NCBI RefSeq assembly: GCF_001642735.1
Contig: NZ_LWHM01000027.1
Span: 62,001-126,000 of the forward strand
Source of the DNA: Pseudohongiella nitratireducens
GTDB taxonomy: Bacteria > Pseudomonadota > Gammaproteobacteria > Pseudomonadales > Pseudohongiellaceae
DNA: 64,000 nt
Reading direction: 5' to 3'
Shown here: one piece after another, positions 16,141 through 49,170 of the stretch
Layout of the letters: every line of letters begins with the position of its first letter
How positions within the stretch are numbered: the stretch's first letter is position 1
Position numbers and translations under genes: made by a program
The notes under the pieces: generated by a model
Database searches by the model: none
Told to the model about the DNA's origin: nothing
The model's input: only the letters and a program-made list of their open reading frames with translations

Positions 16141-16472
16141 CACAACTCTCCTTAGTGATTGAATTTTGGCCTTGCGCATCTATCTAAACGTATCCTGGAC
16201 TCAGTGTCCAGTGACATTCTTGATAGTTCCTAAGGCTCTACCCTTGATAACGAGCGCGACACTCATCTATTCCAAACAACAAACAGCGTATAATGGGATA
16301 TGGCCTGAAGCTTGCAGCTGTGCACCAGTATACAGCAGGGGTAATTGCTGCCGGACTTTTCTAAAGGGAAGAGTTGTTTGTGCTCCCGGGCGGATTATGG
16401 GGACATATAACAGCCAATTAGCTACATATTACTGAAAATTACAGTGATTTTGGTGCACTTCATGGGGGAGGT
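16141..16472. other. Intergenic region upstream of nasR
   Basis: 332 bp that should hold promoters for the small lipoprotein (minus) and nasR (plus). I see no ORF with coding character and no sure sigma-70 or sigma-54 promoter here. Confidence 0.4.
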
Positions 16473-17750
16473 ATGCCTGATATACTGCACAATAATCGCG
16501 CGGTAGAGTTTCTTATCGCATCGAAACGGTGCGAAATTCAAGGATTAAGGGACTTTAACGTTATTAGCGGATTGATATCCGTTATCGGCGATCTCGTACA
16601 TTCATTGCAGCGAGAGAGAGGTGCCAGTAACTTATTTGTTGGCAGTCAGGGCAGTGACTACCAGGCGGAACTGATCGCAATCAGGGAAGAGTCTGACCAG
16701 AAGCGATCGGTGCTGGAGCACAGTCTGGATCAAAGTATACCTGCCATCCAGGGGATGGGGGCGTCTTCTGCGGTGCTTTTCAGCCGCCTTTCTCTTGCCA
16801 TACAGGCCATGGAAGAAATTCACACGTTACGGACGCAAACCTGGCAATGTGCCTGGGATGGTCAGGCCCTGACCCAGGCTTATAGTGCAATAATCAGCTC
16901 GCTGTTAGCGGTCGTTTTTGAGGCTGCTGACATTGCTCGCGATCCAAAACTCACAGAGATTCTGGTCGGTCTGTTTAATCTGATGCAGGGGAAGGAGTTG
17001 GCGGGTCAGGAAAGAGCGGCGGGTTCACTCGCCTTTGCCAGTGGCATGGCGCCGGTTGAAATCAAATCCAGAATTGAACATCTTATCGATTATCAGGAAA
17101 CCTGTTTTTCGACCTATCTCCAACATGTTGATCAGCAGGCAGTAGCCGTCTGGCGTGCATTAGAGTCTTCACCATGTTGCCTGCAGATAGCAGCCTTGCG
17201 AGATCATCTTTGTGGAACAGCCAAAGGTCGTTTGACCGGTGAGGATCTGGCGCGGCAATGGTTCACGGTACAAAGTGAAAAGCAGGATAAGATCAGGGAG
17301 CTGGAAATAGCATGTTATGAAGCCCTGTCAATGCAATGCCAACTGAGACTTGAAGAGGCTGAGAATCGTCTGTCAGCCAATGAAGATGCTGTTCAGCATT
17401 TTATGTCGTTGAACGAAGAAGAACCTACCAGCTCGATTGAAACGTTTTCGCTGCTCCGGACACCGGTTAACAATAATGTAACATCTCCAGGCCAATCCCG
17501 TACTTTGATGGATCTTGTGCAGTACCAATCCAAACGCTTACAGGAAGTAGAGCAATCACTGGATTTGGCCAGAACCGCTCTGGAAGAACGTAAGATAATG
17601 GAACGGGCCAAATATATTTTAATGAAACATCGTGGATTGGAAGAAGATGAAGCGTATCAGCTGATGAGGCAGACGGCGATGAATCAAAGCCGCCGGTTAA
17701 TTGATGTGGCGCGTTCTCTCATCGAAATGTCAGTTTTATGGAAGGGGTAG
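16473..17750 (+). CDS. nasR: Nitrate-responsive antiterminator NasR (NIT domain + ANTAR)
   Basis: 425 aa. The N-terminal two thirds is an all-helical nitrate/nitrite-sensing (NIT) domain, with the signature VHSLQRERGASNLFVGSQG near residues 42-60 and LFNLMQGKELAGQERAAGS near 170. The last ~60 residues (TALEERKIMERAKYILMKHR, then DEAYQLMRQTAMNQSRRLID) are an ANTAR RNA-binding domain. In Klebsiella NasR, nitrate binding frees ANTAR to bind a two-hairpin leader RNA and prevent termination. Candidate RNA targets are the leaders of nrtA (21112-21216) and nirB (21542-21662). GGGGGAGGT lies directly before the ATG. Confidence 0.93.
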   Translation: MPDILHNNRAVEFLIASKRCEIQGLRDFNVISGLISVIGDLVHSLQRERGASNLFVGSQGSDYQAELIAIREESDQKRSVLEHSLDQSIPAIQGMGASSAVLFSRLSLAIQAMEEIHTLRTQTWQCAWDGQALTQAYSAIISSLLAVVFEAADIARDPKLTEILVGLFNLMQGKELAGQERAAGSLAFASGMAPVEIKSRIEHLIDYQETCFSTYLQHVDQQAVAVWRALESSPCCLQIAALRDHLCGTAKGRLTGEDLARQWFTVQSEKQDKIRELEIACYEALSMQCQLRLEEAENRLSANEDAVQHFMSLNEEEPTSSIETFSLLRTPVNNNVTSPGQSRTLMDLVQYQSKRLQEVEQSLDLARTALEERKIMERAKYILMKHRGLEEDEAYQLMRQTAMNQSRRLIDVARSLIEMSVLWKG

Positions 17751-17833: not shown

Positions 17834-18613
17834 TTAATGGGTCCCACCATACAGGAATCGCAGGACATCATTTCGATAGCCAATGTAAGCCGTATCATCA
17901 GCCAATGCCAAGCGGTCACGGGGTCTTTCCAGATTGACTTCCAGTAACTCCCCGATGGAAGCTTCTGGTCCGACAGTCAGCATAACGATTTTATCAGACA
18001 GCAACACGGCCTCGTCGACATCGTGCGTAATCATAATGACGGTATTATTGAGTGAACTGTGAATACGCATCAACTCATCCTGTAAGTGTGCGCGGGTTAA
18101 TGCATCCAGAGCACCAAACGGTTCGTCCATTAGTAGCACTTTGGGTTCCATCGAAAGACCGCGAGCAATACCAACGCGTTGCTTCATGCCCCCAGAAATT
18201 TCATGAGGCAGTTTATCTTTTGCGTGTGTCATGCTGACCAGGTCCAGGTTGTGTTCAACCCAGCCTTTGACTTCTGATGCCGGGCGACGCCCTTTGAAGA
18301 CCTGTTTAACAGCCAGCTCCACATTTTCGTAGACAGTCAGCCAGGGTAATAACGCGTGATTTTGAAAGACAACAGCGCGATCAGGGTTGGGCGAATCTAC
18401 CTGACGACCCTCCAGAATGACACCACCTTCTGTTGCCTGGTGCAGGCCGGCAATAATGTTCAGGATAGTGGATTTACCACAACCGGAGTGTCCTATCAGC
18501 GATACGAAATCACCTTTATTGACTTTCAGGTTTACATTGCTGAGCGCTTTGAATGGGACATTATTGGTGTTGAATTCGATGCCAACATTGCTCAGTTCAA
18601 GATAACACTGCAT
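17834..18613 (-). CDS. nrtC: Nitrate ABC transporter ATP-binding protein
   Basis: ABC ATPase of 259 aa in the NrtC/NrtD/SsuB/TauB group. Walker A GHSGCGKST near residue 42, Q-loop FQNHALLPWLTVYENV, signature SGGMKQRVGIARGL near 140, Walker B VLLMDEPFGALD near 160, and the switch histidine MITHDVDEA. It has only the ATPase domain; the NrtA-like regulatory extension found in cyanobacterial NrtC is absent, so the name follows the role rather than that architecture. Third gene of the nrtABC operon, ending at a terminator; GGAG precedes the start. Confidence 0.9.
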   Translation of the reverse strand: MQCYLELSNVGIEFNTNNVPFKALSNVNLKVNKGDFVSLIGHSGCGKSTILNIIAGLHQATEGGVILEGRQVDSPNPDRAVVFQNHALLPWLTVYENVELAVKQVFKGRRPASEVKGWVEHNLDLVSMTHAKDKLPHEISGGMKQRVGIARGLSMEPKVLLMDEPFGALDALTRAHLQDELMRIHSSLNNTVIMITHDVDEAVLLSDKIVMLTVGPEASIGELLEVNLERPRDRLALADDTAYIGYRNDVLRFLYGGTH

Positions 18614-18642: not shown

Positions 18643-19644
18643 TTAACGTAGGACAGCCGTTTTATCCCAGCTGACTTTGCGCTGAATCAACAACATGATT
18701 TTGTCCAGGGCAAAACCGATTAGGCCGATTGCAATGACAGCGACCATAATCCTTCCAAGTGAATCAGAACTTCCATTCTGGAACTCGTCCCAGATGAATT
18801 TACCCAGCCCAGGGTTTTGTGCAAGCATTTCGGCAGCAATCAGTACCATCCAGCCAGTCGCCAGCGACATACGCATCCCCGTAAAAATCATTGGCACAGC
18901 GGAAGGCAGTACAATCTTGGTTACATGTAAATGAGCCGGAAGCTGGATAACACGGCTAACGTTAATCAGGTCTTTATCAACACTGGTGACACCAACGGTG
19001 GTGTTAATCAATGTCGGCCACAGACTGCACAGTGACACCGTGATAGCTGATGTGACAAAAGCCTTTGTAAATACTTCACTGTCACTGACATAAAGGGCAC
19101 TGACAACCATGGTGACCAGTGGCAGCCAGGCCAGTGGTGAAACTGGTTTGAAAACCTGAATCAGCGGGTTGATGGCACTGTAAATGGATGAGTTCAGACC
19201 ACAAATGATTCCCAGGGGGATGGCGATAATTGTGGCAATGAAAAATCCGAATCCTACAGTAAGCAAACTGGTTTGAACCTGATCTACAAACGTCGGTCTT
19301 CCGGTATAAGGTCGTATGCGGGCATCATAGTCAGGATCTACGGCCAGACGTTCAGCATTTCTTTCTTGCTGACGAACCATGAAGTCGCGTTCGCGTTGCT
19401 TCTCGCGCTGATAATCAGCTTTGAGTGAACCAACCTGCTCCCAGACCTGGGTGGGGCCCGGGAACTGACCAAGCGATGTATTGATATTACTGGCAGCCAC
19501 ATGCCACATGAAGAGAAAGACCAGGATGCCTGTGCCGGCTAAAATCCAGGAGCGAAACATCTTGGTAATAGCGCTACCAGAAGCAAAGTCAAAACTATTT
19601 GCCGATGGCAGTGTCAGTCGGATTTTATTCAAAATGGCTTCCAT
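18643..19644 (-). CDS. nrtB: Nitrate ABC transporter permease
   Basis: Inner-membrane permease of 333 aa. One N-terminal helix (WILAGTGILVFLFMWHVAAS), then an unusual charged, helical insert around residues 75-110 (DYQREKQRERDFMVRQQERN), then five helices of the BPD_transp_1 fold with the EAA-like loop SRVIQLPAHLHVTKIVLPSA near residue 230. The close order nrtA-nrtB-nrtC and the family wording support nitrate/nitrite uptake. Related families carry bicarbonate, cyanate or taurine; the nas context favours nitrate. Confidence 0.9.
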   Translation of the reverse strand: MEAILNKIRLTLPSANSFDFASGSAITKMFRSWILAGTGILVFLFMWHVAASNINTSLGQFPGPTQVWEQVGSLKADYQREKQRERDFMVRQQERNAERLAVDPDYDARIRPYTGRPTFVDQVQTSLLTVGFGFFIATIIAIPLGIICGLNSSIYSAINPLIQVFKPVSPLAWLPLVTMVVSALYVSDSEVFTKAFVTSAITVSLCSLWPTLINTTVGVTSVDKDLINVSRVIQLPAHLHVTKIVLPSAVPMIFTGMRMSLATGWMVLIAAEMLAQNPGLGKFIWDEFQNGSSDSLGRIMVAVIAIGLIGFALDKIMLLIQRKVSWDKTAVLR

Positions 19645-19686: not shown

Positions 19687-21078
19687 TTAGAGCGTTTCGT
19701 CTTTTAACCCAATATCCAGTGACTCAAGATAAGCATTGGGCTTGGAACCGTCATAAGGAATACCATCGAGAAAGTCGTCCTGCACTGGGCGATAACCGCT
19801 TTCTGTGTCGAAATTCGGAAAGTCCTCTGCCGACATTAATCCTTCGGCAATCAGTTCCTCTGCGGCAAGTTCATACACATCAGGTCGGTAGACTTTTTTA
19901 GCGGTATCAAAGTACCACTCATCACTCTTTGGTTCAGATATCTGACCCCAGCGACGCATCTGGGTTAAATACCAGATAGCGTCAGAGTAGTATGGGTAGG
20001 TAGCGTTGTATCGGAAGAAAACATTGAAATCAGGTACCTCAAGTACTTCCCCTTTCTGGTATTCAAATGTACCCGTCATGGAATTACCGATAACTTCCTC
20101 ATCGGCGCCAACATATTCACTGCGAGAAAGGATGTTTACAGCTTCTTCGCGATTAGCATTGTTGTTGTCATCCAGCCACTTGTTGGCACGTAACACGGCT
20201 TTAACCAGTCGCACAGAAGTATTGGGGTTTTCCTCGATAAACGATGCCGTCAAACCGAGAACTTTCTCTGGGTTGTTCTTCCAGATTTCATAATCAGTGA
20301 TAACGGGCACACCGATATCACGATAAATAGCCTGCTGATTCCAGGGCTCGCCCACGCTATACCCGAGAATGGTGCCAGCATCCAGCGTTGCTGGCATTTG
20401 TGGTGGCGGTGTCACAGAAAGTAGCGCATCAGCCTGTCGCATACCGGATATATCACCCAGGTGCGGTGCATAGTAGCCAGGGTGGATGCCGCCAGCAGCC
20501 AGCCAGTAGCGAAGTTCGTAGTTATGCGTTGATACCGGGAACACCATGCCCATATTAAAGGGGGTGCCTGCAGCTTTATATTCCTCTACAACGGGTTTCA
20601 GGGATGAAGCTGAAACCGGACGGACAATCTCACCGTCCTCAGTTGGTATGTGTTCCAGCATGGCATCCCAGATGTCGTTGGAAACAGTGATGGCATTACC
20701 ATTGAGATCCAGACTTAATGGCGTAACGATATCAGCCTGAGTGCCATAGCCGATGGTAGCGGCCAGAGGTTGGCCAGCCAGCATGTGGGCTGCATCAAGT
20801 CGGCCATCTATGACGCCGTCAAGTAAAACACGCCAGTTTGCCTGGGCCTCAAGCGTGACATATAAGCCTTCGTCTTCGAAGTAACCTTTCTCATAGGCGA
20901 TCGCTAACGGTGCCATGTCCGTAAGTTTGATAAAACCGATAGTCAGGTCTTCCTTCTCGGGCCAACCTGTTTCTGCCTGGGTGCCCGTTACCATGATGAC
21001 AGAAGTGCCAATTGCCAGTGACGCGGCTTGCAGACATCTAGTGAGTTGATGTTTGGTTGCTTTAAGTACGCTGCTCAT
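19687..21078 (-). CDS. nrtA: Nitrate ABC transporter substrate-binding protein
   Basis: 463 aa, exported by a signal peptide ([21 protein letters not shown]). The NrtA/CmpA-family body is clear: [78 protein letters not shown]. It captures nitrate in the periplasm for NrtBC. The ATG at 21078 is chosen because AGAGGG lies 8 bp before it; a GTG nine bases earlier is too close. Its 5' leader contains a terminator preceded by ANTAR-type hairpins, so expression should depend on nitrate through NasR. Confidence 0.93.
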
Positions 21079-21111
21079 GGATATCACCCTCTATCGTTAG
21101 CTCAAAAAAAA

Positions 21112-21160
21112 GCGCCCACTTCTATGATCGGCCGGATTAGTAGCCGAAAGAAATGGACGC
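21112..21160 (-). terminator. Leader terminator of nrtA
   Basis: On the minus strand the arm GCGTCCATTTCT (21149-21160) pairs with AGAAGTGGGCGC (21112-21123), a 12-bp stem without mismatch counting two G-U pairs. The run of eight T (21104-21111) follows, only 25 bases before the nrtA start codon. A strong intrinsic terminator inside a 5' leader is the mark of attenuation. Confidence 0.9.
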
Positions 21161-21207
21161 CATTGCCCTAAAACGTATCATGTCACCCGTCTTTGGGCGT
21201 GAGATAC
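21155..21207 (-). promoter_or_regulatory. ANTAR-type RNA hairpins P1 and P2 in the nrtA leader
   Basis: Reading the minus strand, P1 spans 21207-21175: lower stem GTATC/GATAC, then TCA/TGA and CCC/GGG closing the hexaloop AAAGAC. P2 spans 21168-21155: GGGC pairs with GTCC around the hexaloop AATGGC. Both loops have A at position 1 and G at position 4, the known ANTAR recognition rule. P2 shares bases with the 5' arm of the terminator, so the two exclude each other. NasR bound to nitrate should stabilise P1-P2 and allow read-through. Confidence 0.75.
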
Positions 21208-21226
21208 ATCGGTTCGCTAAGGGTAA

Positions 21227-21242
21227 TGCATTTAGTGTGCCA
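21227..21242 (-). promoter_or_regulatory. Sigma-54 promoter of nrtABC
   Basis: Minus strand TGGCACACTAAATGCA: perfect -24 TGGCAC, GG and GC separated by 10 bases, -12 ATGCA against TTGCA. Expected transcript start near 21216, just before hairpin P1. Confidence 0.7.
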
Positions 21243-21299: not shown

Positions 21300-21400
21300 C
21301 CGTTTGCGGGCACTGCACAGCACTTTGTGTATATGAGCTATCGGATAACTTTTGTGCATCATTTCAGTGCGCTGTGCACTCTTTGCTGGCACAGGACGGT
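21300..21400. promoter_or_regulatory. Candidate NtrC-type enhancer between the divergent sigma-54 promoters
   Basis: A cluster of GCAC/GTGC half-sites. The best match to the NtrC consensus (TGCAC-N7-GTGCA) is TGCATCATTTCAGTGCG at 21355-21371, which differs in a few positions. It lies about 113 bp from the nrtA promoter and about 145 bp from the nirB promoter, suitable for activating both. Confidence 0.45.
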
Positions 21401-21515: not shown

Positions 21516-21531
21516 TGGCACACCTTTTGCT
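21516..21531 (+). promoter_or_regulatory. Sigma-54 promoter of the nirB-nasA operon
   Basis: TGGCACACCTTTTGCT matches the sigma-54 consensus (TGGCAC, spacer, TTGCT) at all fixed positions except the usual G after TGGCAC. Expected transcript start near 21542, 26 bases before hairpin P1 of the leader. Confidence 0.8.
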
Positions 21532-21567: not shown

Positions 21568-21624
21568 AGCCCAGAACCAACGGCGATTTAAAGGGCTTAA
21601 TACAGAATCAAGGCAAAGGCGCCT
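21568..21624 (+). promoter_or_regulatory. ANTAR-type RNA hairpins P1 and P2 in the nirB leader
   Basis: P1 spans 21568-21597: lower stem AGCCC/GGGCT, internal loop, GAA/TTT (one G-U), a C-A mismatch and a C-G pair closing the hexaloop AACGGC. P2 spans 21611-21624: AGGC pairs with GCCT around the hexaloop AAAGGC. Both loops have A1 and G4. P2 overlaps the 5' arm of the following terminator, as in the nrtA leader and as known for ANTAR-controlled leaders. Confidence 0.75.
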
Positions 21625-21662
21625 GGGACTCGAGCATCGCTCGGGTATCAGGCGCTTTTTTT
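21619..21662 (+). terminator. Leader terminator of nirB
   Basis: GCGCCTG (21619-21625) pairs with CAGGCGC (21649-21655) and the stem continues inward through ACTCGAGC/GCTCGGGT to a three-base loop; seven T follow at 21656-21662. It lies 58 bp before the nirB start with no ORF in between, so it is an attenuator rather than the end of a gene. Confidence 0.9.
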
Positions 21663-21720: not shown

Positions 21721-24243
21721 ATGAGTAAGCAACGATTGCTGGTTATCGGCAACGGGATGGTAGGCCAGCGATTTTTGGAAGAGCTGGTAGCCAAAACGCA
21801 GGCCTATGACATTACAGTCATAGGTGAGGAGATTCGCCCTGCTTACGACCGTGTTCAGCTTAGCGCCTGGTTCTCCGGTACAACGGTCGAAGAGTTGACG
21901 CTATGTGATGAAAACTTTTTTCATGATAACGGCATCACTTTTTTGACCGGGACGAAGGCAGTCTCCATTAACCGTACTGCAAAAATAGTTAAGACTGATA
22001 CCGGTATGGAACTTTGCTACGACACATTGGTATTGGCAACGGGGTCATATCCCTTTGTACCGCCAATCCCTGGCAATGATAAAGCGCATTGTCATGTTTA
22101 CCGCACCATTGAGGATCTCGAAGCCATACAGGCTTCAGCTTCCTCAAGTCAGAGCGGGGTAGTTGTCGGTGGTGGCCTGCTTGGCCTTGAGGCTGCAAAG
22201 GCACTCAAAGATAGTGGCCTGGTGACACATGTTGTGGAATTTGCGCCTCAGTTAATGGCAGTGCAGCTTGATGATATTGGCGGTGCATTACTGAGAGAGA
22301 AAATTGAAGCACTGGATGTGCGAGTGCATACCGGGAAAGCCACTCAAAACATCGGTACAGGAACGACAGCCAGGTACCGGTTGAACTTTGAAGAAGGTGA
22401 TCTGGAAACAGACATGATCGTTTTCTCCGCGGGTATACGCCCGCGTGATGAACTGGCGCGCAGCAGTGGATTAAGTATTGGTGAGCGAGGCGGCGTTATT
22501 ATTGATGATCACTGCAAAACGAGTGATGACAGTATTTATGCCATTGGTGAGGTCGCCCTGTGGCAAGGGAAAATTTACGGACTGGTAGCGCCCGGTTATG
22601 AGATGGCCCGGAATCTGGCTTCCACACTGACGGATGAAGCCAAAACATTTTCGGGTGCTGACATGAGCACGAAACTGAAGCTGTTAGGCGTTGAAGTGGG
22701 TTCAATTGGCGATGCCCACGCCCGGAGTGAAGGGTCACGCATTTGTTCTATCTCAGATGCCTCACGTGGAGTCTATAAGAAACTGGTCATCAGCAACGAT
22801 GGTAAAAAACTGCTGGGAGCTGTGCTGGTTGGCGACACAGGAGACTACGATTCGCTGCTGCAATATAGCCTGAATGATATCGACTTACCTGAGGAGCCGA
22901 TCAGCCTGATCAGTCCTCAGTCCGGTGATAAACCTGTGCTGGGTGTTGATGCGTTACCAGCCACAGCCCAAATCTGTTCCTGCAATAATGTCAGTAAGGG
23001 CGATATCTGTGCATCGATTGCAGCAGGTTGCACAACCATGGGCGCGATTAAAACCGAAACTCGTGCCTCTTCTACCTGTGGCGGATGTACCACGCTGGTC
23101 AAACAGGTTCTCGACGCCGAACTAAAAAGCCAGGGCATCGAAGTCAATAATGATATCTGTGAACACTTTTCCTACACGCGCCAGGGGTTGTATCACCTGG
23201 TCCGTATGCACGGTATTCGCAGTTTTGAAGAACTGCTAGAACGCTTTGGCAGTGGCAATGGCTGTGAGATTTGTAAACCCGCTGTTGGCTCTATTCTCGC
23301 CTCATGCTGGAACGATTTTATCCTGGACCCTAAACACGTCGGTTTGCAGGACACGAATGACAATTTCCTGGCCAACCTGCAAAAAGATGGTAGCTACTCG
23401 GTTGTTCCCCGGATTCCGGGCGGTGAAATTGGTCCAGAGATGCTGGCTGTCCTGGCAGATGTTGCGATTAAGTATGACCTGTATACCAAGATAACAGGTG
23501 GTCAGCGTATCGACCTGTTCGGTGCCCGTGTTGATCAGTTGCCTGCAATCTGGAAAGACCTGACAGACGCTGGATTTGAATCAGGTCATGCCTACGGAAA
23601 ATCCTTACGAACGGTCAAATCCTGTGTCGGCTCTAGCTGGTGCCGCTTTGGTGTGCAGGACTCGGTGAGCATGGCCATTTATGTTGAGAAGCGGTATCGC
23701 GGACTGCGTTCGCCGCACAAAATAAAAATGGCCGTTTCAGGATGTACGCGCGAGTGTGCTGAAGCACAGAGTAAAGATGTGGGTGTCATTGCGACAGAAA
23801 AAGGCTGGAATCTTTATGTATGCGGCAACGGCGGCATGCGTCCTCGCCACGCTGAACTTTTCGCCAGTGATCTCGATGATGAAACCTTGATCAAATATAT
23901 CGACCGCATCCTCATGTTTTACGTCAGAACGGCTGACCGGCTGCAGCGCACATCTGTATGGCGCGACAACATGGAAGGTGGGCTCGAATATTTACAGGAT
24001 GTAGTGATTAACGATTCACTGGGAATCGGTGAAGAACTCGAGACAGAAATGCAGGGCATTATCGATACCTATGAATGTGAGTGGAAAAGAACGATTAATG
24101 ATCCGGCTGCATTGAAGCGTTTTGAACCCTTCCTGAATGATGATACGCCTGATGGAGACATTGTGTACGTGCGTGAACGCGGACAGAAACGACCGGCTCG
24201 TGCTGAAGAAAAACAACAGTTAAAAGTCAAGGAGATTGCGTGA
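21721..24243 (+). CDS. nirB: Assimilatory nitrite reductase NAD(P)H large subunit
   Basis: Reduces nitrite to ammonium with NAD(P)H in the cytoplasm. 840 aa, full length. N-terminal FAD/NAD domains (VIGNGMVGQRFLEEL near residue 8; VVVGGGLLGLEAAKAL near 143), a BFD-type [2Fe-2S] segment with ICSCNNVSKGDICASI and STCGGCTTLVKQVLD near 420-460, then the siroheme/4Fe-4S domain with KSCVGSSWCRFG near 636 and the ligands CTRECAEAQSKDVG near 677 and LYVCGNGG. The ribosome binding site is AGGAG 6 bp before the ATG. First gene after an ANTAR-type attenuator; ends in ATGA overlap with nirD. Confidence 0.97.
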   Translation: MSKQRLLVIGNGMVGQRFLEELVAKTQAYDITVIGEEIRPAYDRVQLSAWFSGTTVEELTLCDENFFHDNGITFLTGTKAVSINRTAKIVKTDTGMELCYDTLVLATGSYPFVPPIPGNDKAHCHVYRTIEDLEAIQASASSSQSGVVVGGGLLGLEAAKALKDSGLVTHVVEFAPQLMAVQLDDIGGALLREKIEALDVRVHTGKATQNIGTGTTARYRLNFEEGDLETDMIVFSAGIRPRDELARSSGLSIGERGGVIIDDHCKTSDDSIYAIGEVALWQGKIYGLVAPGYEMARNLASTLTDEAKTFSGADMSTKLKLLGVEVGSIGDAHARSEGSRICSISDASRGVYKKLVISNDGKKLLGAVLVGDTGDYDSLLQYSLNDIDLPEEPISLISPQSGDKPVLGVDALPATAQICSCNNVSKGDICASIAAGCTTMGAIKTETRASSTCGGCTTLVKQVLDAELKSQGIEVNNDICEHFSYTRQGLYHLVRMHGIRSFEELLERFGSGNGCEICKPAVGSILASCWNDFILDPKHVGLQDTNDNFLANLQKDGSYSVVPRIPGGEIGPEMLAVLADVAIKYDLYTKITGGQRIDLFGARVDQLPAIWKDLTDAGFESGHAYGKSLRTVKSCVGSSWCRFGVQDSVSMAIYVEKRYRGLRSPHKIKMAVSGCTRECAEAQSKDVGVIATEKGWNLYVCGNGGMRPRHAELFASDLDDETLIKYIDRILMFYVRTADRLQRTSVWRDNMEGGLEYLQDVVINDSLGIGEELETEMQGIIDTYECEWKRTINDPAALKRFEPFLNDDTPDGDIVYVRERGQKRPARAEEKQQLKVKEIA

Positions 24244-29499: not shown

Positions 29500-30744
29500 A
29501 TGAACAGTATAAATATCAAAGGAAAGATTTTGTCAGGCTTAATATCACAGCGACTGACCTTAGCCACCGTATTGGGTGCCAGTGCGCTCATCAACAGCCT
29601 GTCGGTGTCGGCGCAAAATGATGGCGAAACGGCAGCAGAAAATGCCAGTCGTTTTGCCATCAATTTCCGAGCCCGGACTGAACATGTCAGTGATGAGGGC
29701 GTATCGGAAGATGCATTCGCCCCGTCGCTACGAACCCGGTTGAGATTTGATAGTGCCAGTTGGAATCAACTATCTGTGGCAGTCGAATTGGATAATGTCA
29801 CTTATCTGGGTGATGAACGTTTTAACAATACACGCAACGGTCAGGTGCAGTATCCGGTTATTGCAGACCCGAAAGGCAGTGACCTGAATCAGTTGTATGT
29901 TCAGTACAACAACAATGGCACAACACTGAAAGCGGGTCGGCAACGTATTCTTCACGCAGACCAACGGTTTATCGGCGGTGTTGGCTGGCGCCAGAATGAG
30001 CAGACTTACGACGCTCTGACATGGCAACAACAATGGGGTGACAATATTCAGCTACAGTACGGCTGGATAGATGAAACACAGCGCATATTTGGCCCTGATG
30101 AAGGGAGTCCCCCTGCATCACTGGAGAGTGATCATCACGTCATGAATCTGGACTGGAAAATCTCGGACAGTGTTAATGTTGCACTGTTCTCATATGATCT
30201 GGATTTTTCTGACGCAGCGGCATTATCCAGCCGAACAGTCGGACTGGATGTTAAAGGCGGGTTTGCAGACATCTGGGGATATCGGTTAACGGCTGCTGAA
30301 CAAAGTGATAGTGCCGGTAATCCATTTGACTACTCTGCCAGCTACTGGCTTGCATCATTGTCGGCCAAGTTGGACAGCTTCACTGTTGCAGTGACAGAAA
30401 CCAGCCTGGGTGCTGATGAAGATGCGAATCGTGCATTTCAGACACCGTTGGCAACGTTACATGCCTTCCAGGGCTGGGCTGATCGTTTTCTGACAACGCC
30501 TGGGTTTGGTATCAGGGATACGCAATTCACAATCAGCGGTACGTTGTTTGGTGCGAATACACAGTTGCACTGGCACCAGTATCGCAGTGATACCGGTGGT
30601 ATGGAGCTTGGCAGTGAGTGGAACTTCCAGATTGCGAAACAGATTGATCGTTATTCGTTGGCGTTGAAATTCGCTGATTATCAGGCTGATGAGTTTAGCC
30701 AGGACAGCAGTAAACTCTGGGTTACTATTGCGACCGGGTTTTAA
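29500..30744 (+). CDS. Outer-membrane porin, alginate-export-like family
   Basis: 414 aa beta-barrel with a signal peptide (LATVLGASALINSLSVSAQ). The mature part has alternating strands with aromatic belts (FAINFRARTEHVSDEG, LYVQYNNNGTTLKAGRQRI, WGDNIQLQYGWIDETQRIFG) and ends in Phe (LWVTIATGF), as outer-membrane proteins do. KAGRQRILHADQRFIGGVGWRQ resembles the AlgE/alginate-export-family wording. Its place at the end of the nitrate operon suggests a nitrate or nitrite pore, which is an inference; the export family name says nothing about substrate. Confidence 0.75.
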   Translation: MNSINIKGKILSGLISQRLTLATVLGASALINSLSVSAQNDGETAAENASRFAINFRARTEHVSDEGVSEDAFAPSLRTRLRFDSASWNQLSVAVELDNVTYLGDERFNNTRNGQVQYPVIADPKGSDLNQLYVQYNNNGTTLKAGRQRILHADQRFIGGVGWRQNEQTYDALTWQQQWGDNIQLQYGWIDETQRIFGPDEGSPPASLESDHHVMNLDWKISDSVNVALFSYDLDFSDAAALSSRTVGLDVKGGFADIWGYRLTAAEQSDSAGNPFDYSASYWLASLSAKLDSFTVAVTETSLGADEDANRAFQTPLATLHAFQGWADRFLTTPGFGIRDTQFTISGTLFGANTQLHWHQYRSDTGGMELGSEWNFQIAKQIDRYSLALKFADYQADEFSQDSSKLWVTIATGF

Positions 30745-45292: not shown

Positions 45293-46600
45293 TTATTCGG
45301 CTAGTTTCCGATAGAGCGAGCGTACGCTTATACCCGCTATTTGAGCTGCTTTATGCTTATTTCCTGCACAATAACGTAAGAGTTCTTCGAGGTATCGGGT
45401 TTCACTTGATTTGAGATCAGGATAATTAAGATGTTCTTCTGTGTCAGATAATTCTGACATGCCAGGCTGCTGTGTCGTGGAGCGAGCAATAACTGACTCA
45501 TCAATGATATTGGAATGTGCAAATATGGTTGCGCGTTCCAGTATATTGCGAAGTTCTCGAATGTTTCCTGAAAAAGAGAGTGTCTGTAAGTGGTTAACTG
45601 CAGAGCCTGTTAGACGATAGCGGGCGCCAGGATTGAGTTTTCTGATAATGGATTGGGCGATCAGAGAAATATCATCACGACGGTCCCGCAAGGGCGGCAG
45701 TGTAATAGGGAAAGCATTGATCCGGTAATAGAGATCTTCCCGGAACTCGCCTTTTTCAACCATGGATAACAAGTTTTTATGGGTAGCACAGACGAGTCGG
45801 AAGTCGGCCAGTTTTGGTTGTGTACTGCCGACTTCACGGTAGCTGCCAGTCTCCAGTAATCGCAACAGCTTGACTTGCATAGTAAGCGGAACGTCGCCGA
45901 TTTCATCCAGAAAGAGTGTGCCGCCTCGAGCTGATTCGAGTAAACCGGGTTTGTGATTCACCGCACCAGTAAAGGCGCCTTTGACGTGCCCGAAAAGTTC
46001 ACTTTCAAATAATGTATCAGTTAACCCAGCGCATTCCACTGTCACCATGGCACCATGGGCCCGAGGGCTCGTGTCATGAATAGCTCTGGCTGCCAGCTCT
46101 TTGCCGGTGCCAGATTCTCCCAGCAGCAAAACAGATGTTTCATGTGATGCAACCAGGTTGATTAATTCGAGCATGTGGTTGAAAGCAGGGCTTTGCCCGA
46201 CCATGTGCTCACTGCTGATTTCTGCGCTGGCATTTTTTACCGGTTTGAGTATTTCAATGAAATAACGCAGCTTCCCTTTCCTGTCTTTGAGAGGCAGCAT
46301 TTCAACATCAATATGCTCACGTCCCCGCGGTGTGTTGTGGATATGCAGCACACGTTCACGTTCGCCGGATTGTGTGCAGGCGAGCAATGGGCAGCTTTCG
46401 CCAGCCTGGTCACAGGGCCGGTCATACCCATGAGAAACCCGGAAACAATTATCCCCATAGGTGATTTCACCAAAGGTGTCCTGATAAAGCTGGTTGTTCG
46501 CCAGGATCTGATAGTCAGGCGTCAAAAGGATAGCGGGATGGTCAAGACCATCCAGCAAGGAACGAAAGTCCAGTTCACTGTCGCTTGCAATTACATTCAT
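45293..46600 (-). CDS. fisR: Sigma-54-dependent activator, FisR-like sulfane-sulfur sensor
   Basis: 435 aa. N-terminal PAS-like domain (1-120) with cysteines 52, 63 and 70; this spacing of 11 and 7 equals that of the persulfide-sensing Cys53/64/71 of Cupriavidus FisR. AAA+ domain 130-365 with Walker A GESGTGKE and the sigma-54 contact loop GAFTGA. C-terminal Fis-type helix-turn-helix ([20 protein letters not shown]). FisR activates pdo and sqr when sulfane sulfur is present; pdo-sqr lie 3 kb away here. It is divergent from cydAB, whose promoter is of the sigma-54 type. Confidence 0.85.
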
Positions 46601-46737: not shown

Positions 46738-46753
46738 TGGCACAGGCATTGCT
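46738..46753 (+). promoter_or_regulatory. Sigma-54 promoter of cydAB
   Basis: TGGCACAGGCATTGCT: -24 TGGCAC and -12 TTGCT with the exact spacing. Expected start near 46764, 41 bases before the GTG start of cydA. Confidence 0.82.
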
Positions 46754-46804
46754 GTATTGCTCAGGTATCAATGTCTTTGCTTCGTCTGCATCCGGGAGGA
46801 ACTG

Positions 46805-48178
46805 GTGGATATCGACCCTTTTGTGCTGGCTCGCATCCAATTTGCCGCAAATATCAGCTTTCATATTTTATTTCCGGCAATTTCAATTGGTCTTGCCTGG
46901 TTTCTGCTTTTCTTCCGCATTCGCTTTACCCAAACAGGGGATAAGGCCTGGGAGTATGCCTACTTTTTCTGGGTAAAAGTCTTTGCCCTCACCTTCGCCA
47001 TGGGGGTGGTCTCTGGTATCACCATGAGTTTCCAGTTCGGGACAAACTGGCCGGGATTTATGGAAAAGGCCGGTAATGTAGCTGGGCCGTTATTGGGCTA
47101 TGAAGTACTAAGTGCTTTTTTCCTGGAAGCTTCCTTTCTTGGCATTATGCTCTATGGCAAAAACCGGGTATCGAACAACATTCATCTGATAAGTACGTTT
47201 CTGGTCGCCTTTGGCACAACCCTGTCAGCTTTCTGGATACTGAGCCTGAACTCCTGGATGCAAACACCAACCGGGTATTTCATTGAAGATGGGCGGGTCA
47301 TGGTTGATAGCTGGCTGGCCGTTATCTTCAACCCTTCGTTTCCTTACCGTTTCACGCATATGTTACTGGCATCGGTACTTACCTGTGCTTTTCTGATAGC
47401 GGGTGTGAGTGCCTGGCGGGCATTGAAAAAGGTCGATGGGCCGGCGACCTGGAAGGTCATGCGCACCGGTGTCATGGTGGCCGCCATTGCCGCGCCATTA
47501 CAGATTCTGGTCGGCGATATGCACGGACTGAATACCCTGGAGCATCAACCCGCGAAAGTCGCCGCCATGGAGGCTATCTGGGAAACCGAGCGTGGTGCGC
47601 CTTTTACGCTGGTTGCGATGCCGGATGAAGAGGCTCGCAGCAACCGTTTTGCGGTAGAAGTGCCCTATGCAGCCAGCTTGGTATTGACTCATCACATGGA
47701 TGGCGAGGTGCAGGGTTTGAATGACTTTGAGGGTGATCACCCGCCGGTGGCGATGGTCTTCTGGTCGTTTCGGGTCATGCTACTGGTTGGGGTGTTGATG
47801 CTCTGTGTGTCGTGGTGGGCGGCGTGGCGGCTGCGAAAAGGCAACCGCGCGGATCGCCTGGTACTCAGAGCGCTTTCCCTGATGACATTCTCTGGCTGGG
47901 TCGCTGTGCTGGCCGGTTGGTATGTGACAGAGATTGGCCGACAACCCTGGATCGTTAGCGGTGTGCTTCGGGTTCAGGATGTCGTCGCTGGCCACAGCGC
48001 TGCAACTGTTGTCAGTACACTGTTTGGGTATGTATTGCTATATGTGCTGTTATTGATCTCGTATGTGGCAGCTGTAAGACGTCTGGCGACCAAACCCGCT
48101 GAGTCATTGGCCATGGGACCCGTTGTATTTACAGAGGATAGTCATAGTCGTCAGCAAGCCCAAAAGGGGGGGGCATAA
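46805..48178 (+). CDS. cydA: Cytochrome bd-type ubiquinol oxidase subunit I
   Basis: 457 aa from a GTG at 46805, preceded by GGGAGGA 4 bp away; the frame is open upstream to 46757 but that part lies on the promoter and lacks a ribosome binding site. DPFVLARIQFAANISFHILF carries the N-terminal heme ligand histidine, then FWVKVFALTFAMGVVSGITM, FEVLSAFFLEASFLGIMLYG is read here as YEVLSAFFLEASFLGIMLYG, and GDMHGLNTLEHQPAKVAAME. The length and short Q-loop fit the cyanide-insensitive (CIO) branch. Reduces oxygen with quinol; bd oxidases tolerate sulfide. Confidence 0.95.
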   Translation: MDIDPFVLARIQFAANISFHILFPAISIGLAWFLLFFRIRFTQTGDKAWEYAYFFWVKVFALTFAMGVVSGITMSFQFGTNWPGFMEKAGNVAGPLLGYEVLSAFFLEASFLGIMLYGKNRVSNNIHLISTFLVAFGTTLSAFWILSLNSWMQTPTGYFIEDGRVMVDSWLAVIFNPSFPYRFTHMLLASVLTCAFLIAGVSAWRALKKVDGPATWKVMRTGVMVAAIAAPLQILVGDMHGLNTLEHQPAKVAAMEAIWETERGAPFTLVAMPDEEARSNRFAVEVPYAASLVLTHHMDGEVQGLNDFEGDHPPVAMVFWSFRVMLLVGVLMLCVSWWAAWRLRKGNRADRLVLRALSLMTFSGWVAVLAGWYVTEIGRQPWIVSGVLRVQDVVAGHSAATVVSTLFGYVLLYVLLLISYVAAVRRLATKPAESLAMGPVVFTEDSHSRQQAQKGGA

Positions 48179-49170
48179 TGGAATTCTGGTTACCTGTTAT
48201 CTACATGGCGACTATGGGTCTTGCCCTGCTGATTTACGTTATTCTCGATGGTTATGACCTGGGTGTTGGCATGTTGTTGCCATGGGCAGAAGAAGACGAA
48301 AAAGACACGATGATTGCGTCAATTGGCCCATTTTGGGATGCCAATGAAACATGGATCGTGTTGGGCGTGGGGATATTATTGATTGCCTTTCCCATGGCAC
48401 ATGGCATTGTGCTGACACATCTGTATATCCCGGTAACGTTAATGCTAATCGGGCTGACATTGCGCGGCGTTGCGTTTGACTTGCGGGTTAAAGCTGGTGA
48501 CCACCGCAAGGGGCTGTGGAATCGGGCTTTTTTTGCTGGCTCATCGCTGGCATCACTTTCCCAGGGCTGGATGCTCGGCGCGTATGTGACAGGGCTGCAA
48601 TCCAATCTGACCAGTTACCTTTTTGCTGGATTGATCGCGCTGACATTACCCGCTCTCTATTTTGTGCTTGGTGCTGCCTGGCTGTTGATGAAAACGGAGG
48701 CAGACCTTCAGCAGAAAGCGATTAAATGGGCCAGGGTCGCTATTTTGCCAATGGGTGTTGGTCTTCTGCTGATCTCAATTGCCACACCACTGGTCAGCCA
48801 GACCATTGCCGATAAATGGTTTACCTGGCCAAATTTGTTGATGATGTCACCCATTCCGATATTCACAGCGGCCTGTTTCGGGATCATGCTGTGGTTGTTA
48901 AAAAACCCAGCCCGTGTCGAGCAAGGGCAGGGCTGGATTCTCTATGCAGCCACTGTTGCTGTCTGCCTGCTGGTGAGCCTGGGGCTGGGGTACAGCCTGT
49001 ATCCCGATATCATTATTGGCCAGATGACCATTTGGGAGGCCTCGGCTTCTGTCAAGTCATTGCTTTTTACCTTGTTCGGTGTAGCCCTGACGCTGCCAGC
49101 CATCATCGTCTATACCATTGTGATTTATCGCATTTTCCACGGTAAAGCGGCGGATCTCAGCTACGACTGA
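48178..49170 (+). CDS. cydB: Cytochrome bd-type ubiquinol oxidase subunit II
   Basis: 330 aa, eight or so transmembrane helices. ILDGYDLGVGMLLPW near residue 22, IGPFWDANETWIVLGVGILL near 50, LRGVAFDLRVKA near 100, FAGSSLASLSQGWMLGAYV. This is the CydB signature. It starts in TAATG overlap with cydA. No cydX- or cydC/D-like gene follows. Confidence 0.95.
   Translation: MEFWLPVIYMATMGLALLIYVILDGYDLGVGMLLPWAEEDEKDTMIASIGPFWDANETWIVLGVGILLIAFPMAHGIVLTHLYIPVTLMLIGLTLRGVAFDLRVKAGDHRKGLWNRAFFAGSSLASLSQGWMLGAYVTGLQSNLTSYLFAGLIALTLPALYFVLGAAWLLMKTEADLQQKAIKWARVAILPMGVGLLLISIATPLVSQTIADKWFTWPNLLMMSPIPIFTAACFGIMLWLLKNPARVEQGQGWILYAATVAVCLLVSLGLGYSLYPDIIIGQMTIWEASASVKSLLFTLFGVALTLPAIIVYTIVIYRIFHGKAADLSYD

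Follow-up and report, generated by a model that had tools for sequence, protein, structure and literature searches.

Among the closest described relatives of the RNA studied here is the leader of the nasF operon of Klebsiella oxytoca. In that system, a regulator containing NIT and ANTAR domains (NasR) acts on two hairpins whose hexaloops carry A1 and G4, the second of which overlaps a terminator, in front of a nitrate-assimilation operon (PMC3369936, PMC7496416). A1 and G4, together with closure of the loop by a C:G pair, are the features that NasR selects in SELEX (PMC7496416). ANTAR RNAs in front of nitrate/nitrite transporter and nitrite reductase genes were already listed by Ramesh et al. 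2012 (PMC3369931), and in Bradyrhizobium diazoefficiens NasT-type hairpins have been predicted in the leaders of narK, nirA and other genes, that of nosR having been shown (PMC6759348).

We analyzed a locus of Pseudohongiella nitratireducens in which nrtABC and nirB are divergently oriented; all coordinates refer to the window, that is, the whole 64 kb stretch of DNA that was analyzed. A sequence-only reading of this DNA had proposed that a second ANTAR-type attenuator, on the strand opposite to the first, governs nrtABC, and that it is unusual for uptake and reduction to have an RNA switch each. The features of the locus are the following:

16473–17750, plus strand: nasR, one-component regulator with NIT (138 bits) and ANTAR (64 bits) domains, beside nrtC
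17834–18613, minus strand: nrtC, ATPase (TIGR01184, above cut-off)
18643–19644, minus strand: nrtB, permease (ntrB family, below its equivalog cut-off)
19687–21078, minus strand: nrtA, nitrate-type ABC substrate-binding protein (NMT1_2, 315 bits); its ATG is at 21078
21104–21161, minus strand: intrinsic terminator of 12–13 bp plus T8, with its 5' arm overlapping P2 (folding; 44.5 bits with model R1, of which it is a training member)
21155–21168, minus strand: P2, antiterminator hairpin with C:G-closed loop AATGGC at 21159–21164 (folding; covariation over 29 distinct sequences)
21172–21210, minus strand: P1, hairpin with C:G-closed loop AAAGAC at 21189–21194 (folding; compensatory changes in congeners)
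21227–21242, minus strand: sigma54 (-24/-12) promoter of nrtA, TGGCACACTAAATGCA, kept in all five congeners with a close NrtA
21355–21371, no strand assigned: NtrC-like site with two mismatches, between the nrtA and nirB promoters (pattern scan; suggestive only)
21516–21531, plus strand: sigma54 promoter of nirB, TGGCACACCTTTTGCT (sigma54 scan; comparison with congeners)
21573–21590, plus strand: P1 of the nirB leader, with C:G-closed loop AACGGC at 21579–21584 and an A.C mismatch in the stem (from the sequence)
21611–21662, plus strand: P2 of the nirB leader (loop AAAGGC, 21615–21620) with overlapping terminator (47 bits, training member)
21721–24243, plus strand: nirB, with which the nirBD-nasB-nasC-cobA transcription unit begins (profile matches)

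The plan claimed for the nrtA leader was borne out on the minus strand. Read from nirB towards nrtA, the gap between the two genes contains the sigma54 promoter, P1, P2, the terminator, eight Ts and the nrtA start, in this order. The leader corresponds to 21104–21216, and its transcription is expected to start near 21216–21218, as set by the sigma54 promoter. It has two hairpins with the hexaloops AAAGAC and AATGGC, both of which carry A1 and G4 and are closed by a C:G pair, as in the RNAs selected by NasR in SELEX (PMC7496416). Their stems of 5 and 4 bp exceed the minimum of 3 bp for a dual-hairpin RNA of this type. The upper stem of P1 pairs cgccc (21199–21195) with gggtg (21188–21184) around the loop at 21194–21189, and its lower stem pairs 21210–21203 with 21179–21172. 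P2 is formed by gggc (21168–21165) and gtcc (21158–21155) around the loop at 21164–21159. The 5' arm of the terminator (GGCGTCCATTTCT, 21161–21149) starts within the P2 loop, so that bases 21155–21161 are common to both structures; the 3' arm (AGAAGTGGGCGCT, 21123–21111) is followed by T8 at 21111–21104. The terminator had been described as a perfect 12-bp stem: 12 pairs are indeed present, but two of them are G.U wobbles, so the description holds only if G.U is counted as a pair, and an outer G.U brings the stem to 13. A terminator scan with a loop limit of 8 misses this terminator because of that limit.

Folding of the minus-strand leader, a check put forward with the sequence-only reading, gave the terminator form for the whole leader (-44.7 kcal/mol, z -4.76 against shuffles) and the P1+P2 form once the 3' arm of the terminator was removed. 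In a series of growing transcripts, P2 is seen once the length reaches 64 nt and persists, alongside P1, until 100 nt; from 104 nt onwards the terminator displaces it. P2 and the terminator are thus mutually exclusive in terms of shared bases and growing-transcript folding, and also in terms of the covariation of both forms.

The nrtA leader is kept, with compensatory changes, in the five congeners with a close NrtA (G007, G008, G010, G012 and G013), all of which also have the nirB leader on the opposite strand and a sigma54 promoter for each leader. Both the nrtA-side and the nirB leader are likewise present in three congeners with a more distant transporter (G002, G006 and G014). The gene order nasR, nrtCBA and divergent nirB is identical in all eight other loci of the genus examined, and nirD-nasB-nasC follows nirB in eight genus loci wherever the fetched stretch extends that far. 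For P1 and P2 together, 95.2% of the cells are paired in six sequences of the genus versus 88.8% in shuffles and at most 46% when the partners are slid; of six pairs compared in lower P1, two are broken in G008 and G010. Across 29 distinct P2/terminator sequences, 98.3% of the P2 cells are paired with 21 two-sided changes, versus 86.5% and 7.7 in shuffles, counts that are not probabilities, as the sequences are related to one another. The terminator arms change in step with P2 in this set, and sliding the partners abolishes the signal. The set was chosen by terminator register, which means that the terminator pairing percentage is partly built in; the P2 pairs beyond the closing C:G pair played no part in the choice. 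Covariation of both alternative pairings is as expected for mutually exclusive structures, and it lends comparative support, drawn from many species, to the exchange of P2 and terminator that Ramesh et al. proposed.

To assess chance occurrence and site specificity, we applied a strict rule requiring a pair of A..G.. hexaloop hairpins, each loop closed by C:G, and a terminator with at least T5 that overlaps the second hairpin. It was satisfied once in the window, by the nrtA leader, and in none of 20 shuffled windows; among the regions upstream of nrtA/nirB relatives it was satisfied in 24 of 115, versus none of 575 dinucleotide shuffles. Across 1.93 Mb of related loci (both strands counted; 553 terminators), the rule picked out sites immediately before nrtA or nirB and nowhere else. 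The core P2 pattern has 12 matches in the whole genome, and a strong overlapping terminator accompanies it only at the two nas leaders; one further match has a weak T4 terminator candidate. Many nrtA relatives among the 115 upstream regions fail the strict rule, so the detection rule does not hold for all of them, or else the mechanism is not general.

The product of nasR has an N-terminal NIT domain and a C-terminal ANTAR domain, and its alignment with the structure of K. oxytoca NasR (4akk; E 2e-40) spans the two. In this alignment, with the numbering matched by hand to PMC7496416, the residues that serve RNA binding and autoinhibition in K. oxytoca NasR gave a mixed picture: R340, K341, K347, R366 and E191 are kept, K345 is replaced by R and W362 by Y, but N373 is replaced by S, R193 by K and Q194 by S. 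NasR is the only ANTAR protein and the only NIT protein of the genome, whose assembly is estimated to be 100% complete; hence a functional nrtA leader would have no other candidate regulator of this class in the assembly. Pseudohongiellaceae outside the genus have NasT beside NasS in place of NasR; in Halomonas, too, NasR and NasST-type regulators are reported to be almost mutually exclusive (PMC8014003). Next to cobA, where the nas unit ends, comes an outer-membrane porin-like gene (Alginate_exp / Opr; 29500–30744, plus strand) that is kept there in three congeners and possibly encodes a nitrate porin.

Activation of the nrtA and nirB sigma54 promoters by NtrC under nitrogen limitation is probable. 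Because NtrC-like sites in the window are not in excess of chance (66 found, 107 expected), and because a site resembling that at 21355–21371 was seen in only two congeners, we keep this control as an inference. Two more NtrC-like sites, with two and three mismatches, lie upstream of nasR (16321–16337 and 16454–16470) and may be due to chance. A sigma70 scan detected only chance-level sites. A third sigma54-type promoter (46738–46753, plus strand) is located between a divergent sigma54-activator-like gene (45293–46600) and 46757–49170, whose translations, judged by eye, resemble those of a cytochrome bd-type oxidase operon.

Taken together, we consider that 21104–21216 is a transcribed nrtABC leader working as an ANTAR-type transcription attenuator, with a probability of roughly 0.88. 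RNA polymerase would start at the nrtA sigma54 promoter, and P1 and P2 would form first in the emerging leader. By default, the terminator would then invade P2 and transcription would stop at T8. When nitrate or nitrite is present, the NIT domain of NasR would free the ANTAR domains, and a NasR dimer would grip the P1 and P2 loops through A1 and G4; the 3' arm of P2, being held, would be unavailable to the terminator, and nrtABC would be transcribed. As the divergent nirB unit has its own leader, one NasR could open uptake and reduction together. Binding of NasR to A1/G4, release of its ANTAR domain by nitrate and read-through at the nrtA leader are proposed here by analogy with the work on NasR and EutV (PMC7496416, PMC3369931, PMC3369936).

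The terminated leader might instead be chiefly a stand-alone small RNA like P11 (NalA) of Pseudomonas aeruginosa, acting in trans or titrating NasR, for which the EutV-sequestering small RNAs known from titles cited in PMC7496416 would be a precedent. In an Rfam search at relaxed threshold only P11 was detected, weakly; it aligns across the nrtA promoter, P1, P2 and terminator with 20.5 bits, and nirB leaders of congeners reach up to 29.7 bits, but all of these scores are far below the RF00625 gathering cut-off of 70. Moreover, P11 itself is tied to the nirB leader acting by antitermination, in line with the title of Romeo et al. 2012 (a reference in PMC3795266), and we regard a role mainly as a small RNA as improbable. 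Slightly less probable still is that the structure is a mere intrinsic terminator, ending a short transcript or read-through from the divergent side, with coincidental hexaloops. Although the terminator is strong by itself (-27.9 kcal/mol, z -4.47), the combination of dual hexaloops and terminator never arises in shuffles, P2 covaries independently of the terminator-based selection, and the element sits in the leader of its own gene, after a sigma54 promoter and before the start codon. In a separate P11 search of the whole genome, the sub-cut-off matches look like chance and none lies at the nrtA locus; nine of 14 control genomes also gave matches.

Returning to the attenuator reading, the two leaders of this locus differ in P1. 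In the nirB leader (GAACC AACGGC GATTT), the A.C mismatch adjoins the closing pair, and P1 is absent from the minimum-energy fold. Since P1 is a full hairpin in the nrtA leader, uptake might open before reduction. Two leaders with unequal P1 served by one NasR could let uptake open at lower nitrate or NasR levels, or, once terminated, could compete for NasR, and such inequality would amount to a built-in order of expression; we consider this unlikely. The nirB leaders of the congeners have clean P1 stems and P1 is good on both sides there, so that a hierarchy of leaders by P1 quality showed no consistent order.

The sequence-only reading was supported in placing an attenuator of the same plan as the nirB leader before nrtABC, with NasR as the likely regulator; its claim that two switches are unusual did not hold. 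Both leaders are present in all eight other loci of the genus, and a covariance model built from P2 plus terminator, searched over 392 genomes of the order, was positive in 64. Two or three leaders occur in 14 of these, including ten genomes from other genera. In the present genome, the model matched exactly the two nas leaders, both training members. The multi-leader genomes have NasR or NasST, with leaders before nirB, nasB, nasC, a nitrite transporter gene or a chemoreceptor gene. Leaders precede nrtA and nirB in G181, which has NasT; nrtA and nasB-nirB in G355, which has NasST (G063 also has a nasB-nirB leader); nasC and nirB in G349; and nirB and another unit in G180, with NasR nearby. 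G369 (L192:4558-15347), where nasR lies next to these units, has three leaders: one before nirB, one before nrtABC and one before another NrtABC-like transporter that is divergently oriented. In G405 (L198:2950-4083, plus strand), an ANTAR-type leader and a sigma54 promoter precede a formate/nitrite transporter gene adjoining nasR. In G316 and G355 (L196:3001-5060, minus strand; L202:2487-4693, plus strand), a model-matched leader with a P2-type loop and terminator precedes a gene for a chemoreceptor, and a gene with a NIT domain comes next, which suggests nitrate-controlled chemotaxis genes. Such recurrent extra leaders offer a way of reading nitrate regulons from sequence.

That this organism specially invented the separate leaders for uptake and for reduction has next to no probability, and their uniqueness to it is refuted. 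In favor of that idea, Klebsiella has been described with a single nasFEDCBA leader (PMC3369936, PMC7496416), and many named NrtA relatives have nrtABC and nirB in one direction, where at most an nrtA leader was seen; against it stand the recurrences above and published NasT-type multi-leader regulons (PMC6759348). The recurring double leaders are consistent with the list of Ramesh et al. (PMC3369931) and with those regulons. Two leaders tend to accompany split units in the genomes compared, and the rule suggested is that a division of the nas genes among several transcription units allows a copy of the same leader for every unit. We found no description of NasR acting on two leaders in the open-access literature.

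Several leaders served by one nitrate-responsive ANTAR protein are also a property of the NasT-bound leaders (Bradyrhizobium nos, nirA and narK; Paracoccus nasA), but these depend on the two-component NasS-NasT, whereas the regulator here is a one-component NIT-ANTAR protein (PMC6759348, PMC3795266). In Enterococcus faecalis, one ANTAR protein, EutV, serves four dual-hairpin attenuators in one pathway (PMC3369931), although the signal there is ethanolamine and the ANTAR protein is a response regulator. The Pseudomonas P11/NalA nirB leader (RF00625) has a sigma54 promoter, a hairpin, an AAAGGC-type P2 and a terminator in the same order; P11, however, is on nirB and is tied in Pseudomonas to NasST, not NasR (PMC3795266). 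Compared with the K. oxytoca nasF leader, whose regulator, paired hexaloop hairpins and overlapping terminator have their counterparts here, the transporter and reductase genes of P. nitratireducens are divergent with a leader each, the transporter is NrtABC, and nasR lies beside nrtC. The NasR attenuator would thereby be extended from one Klebsiella operon to a layout in which uptake and reduction are split.
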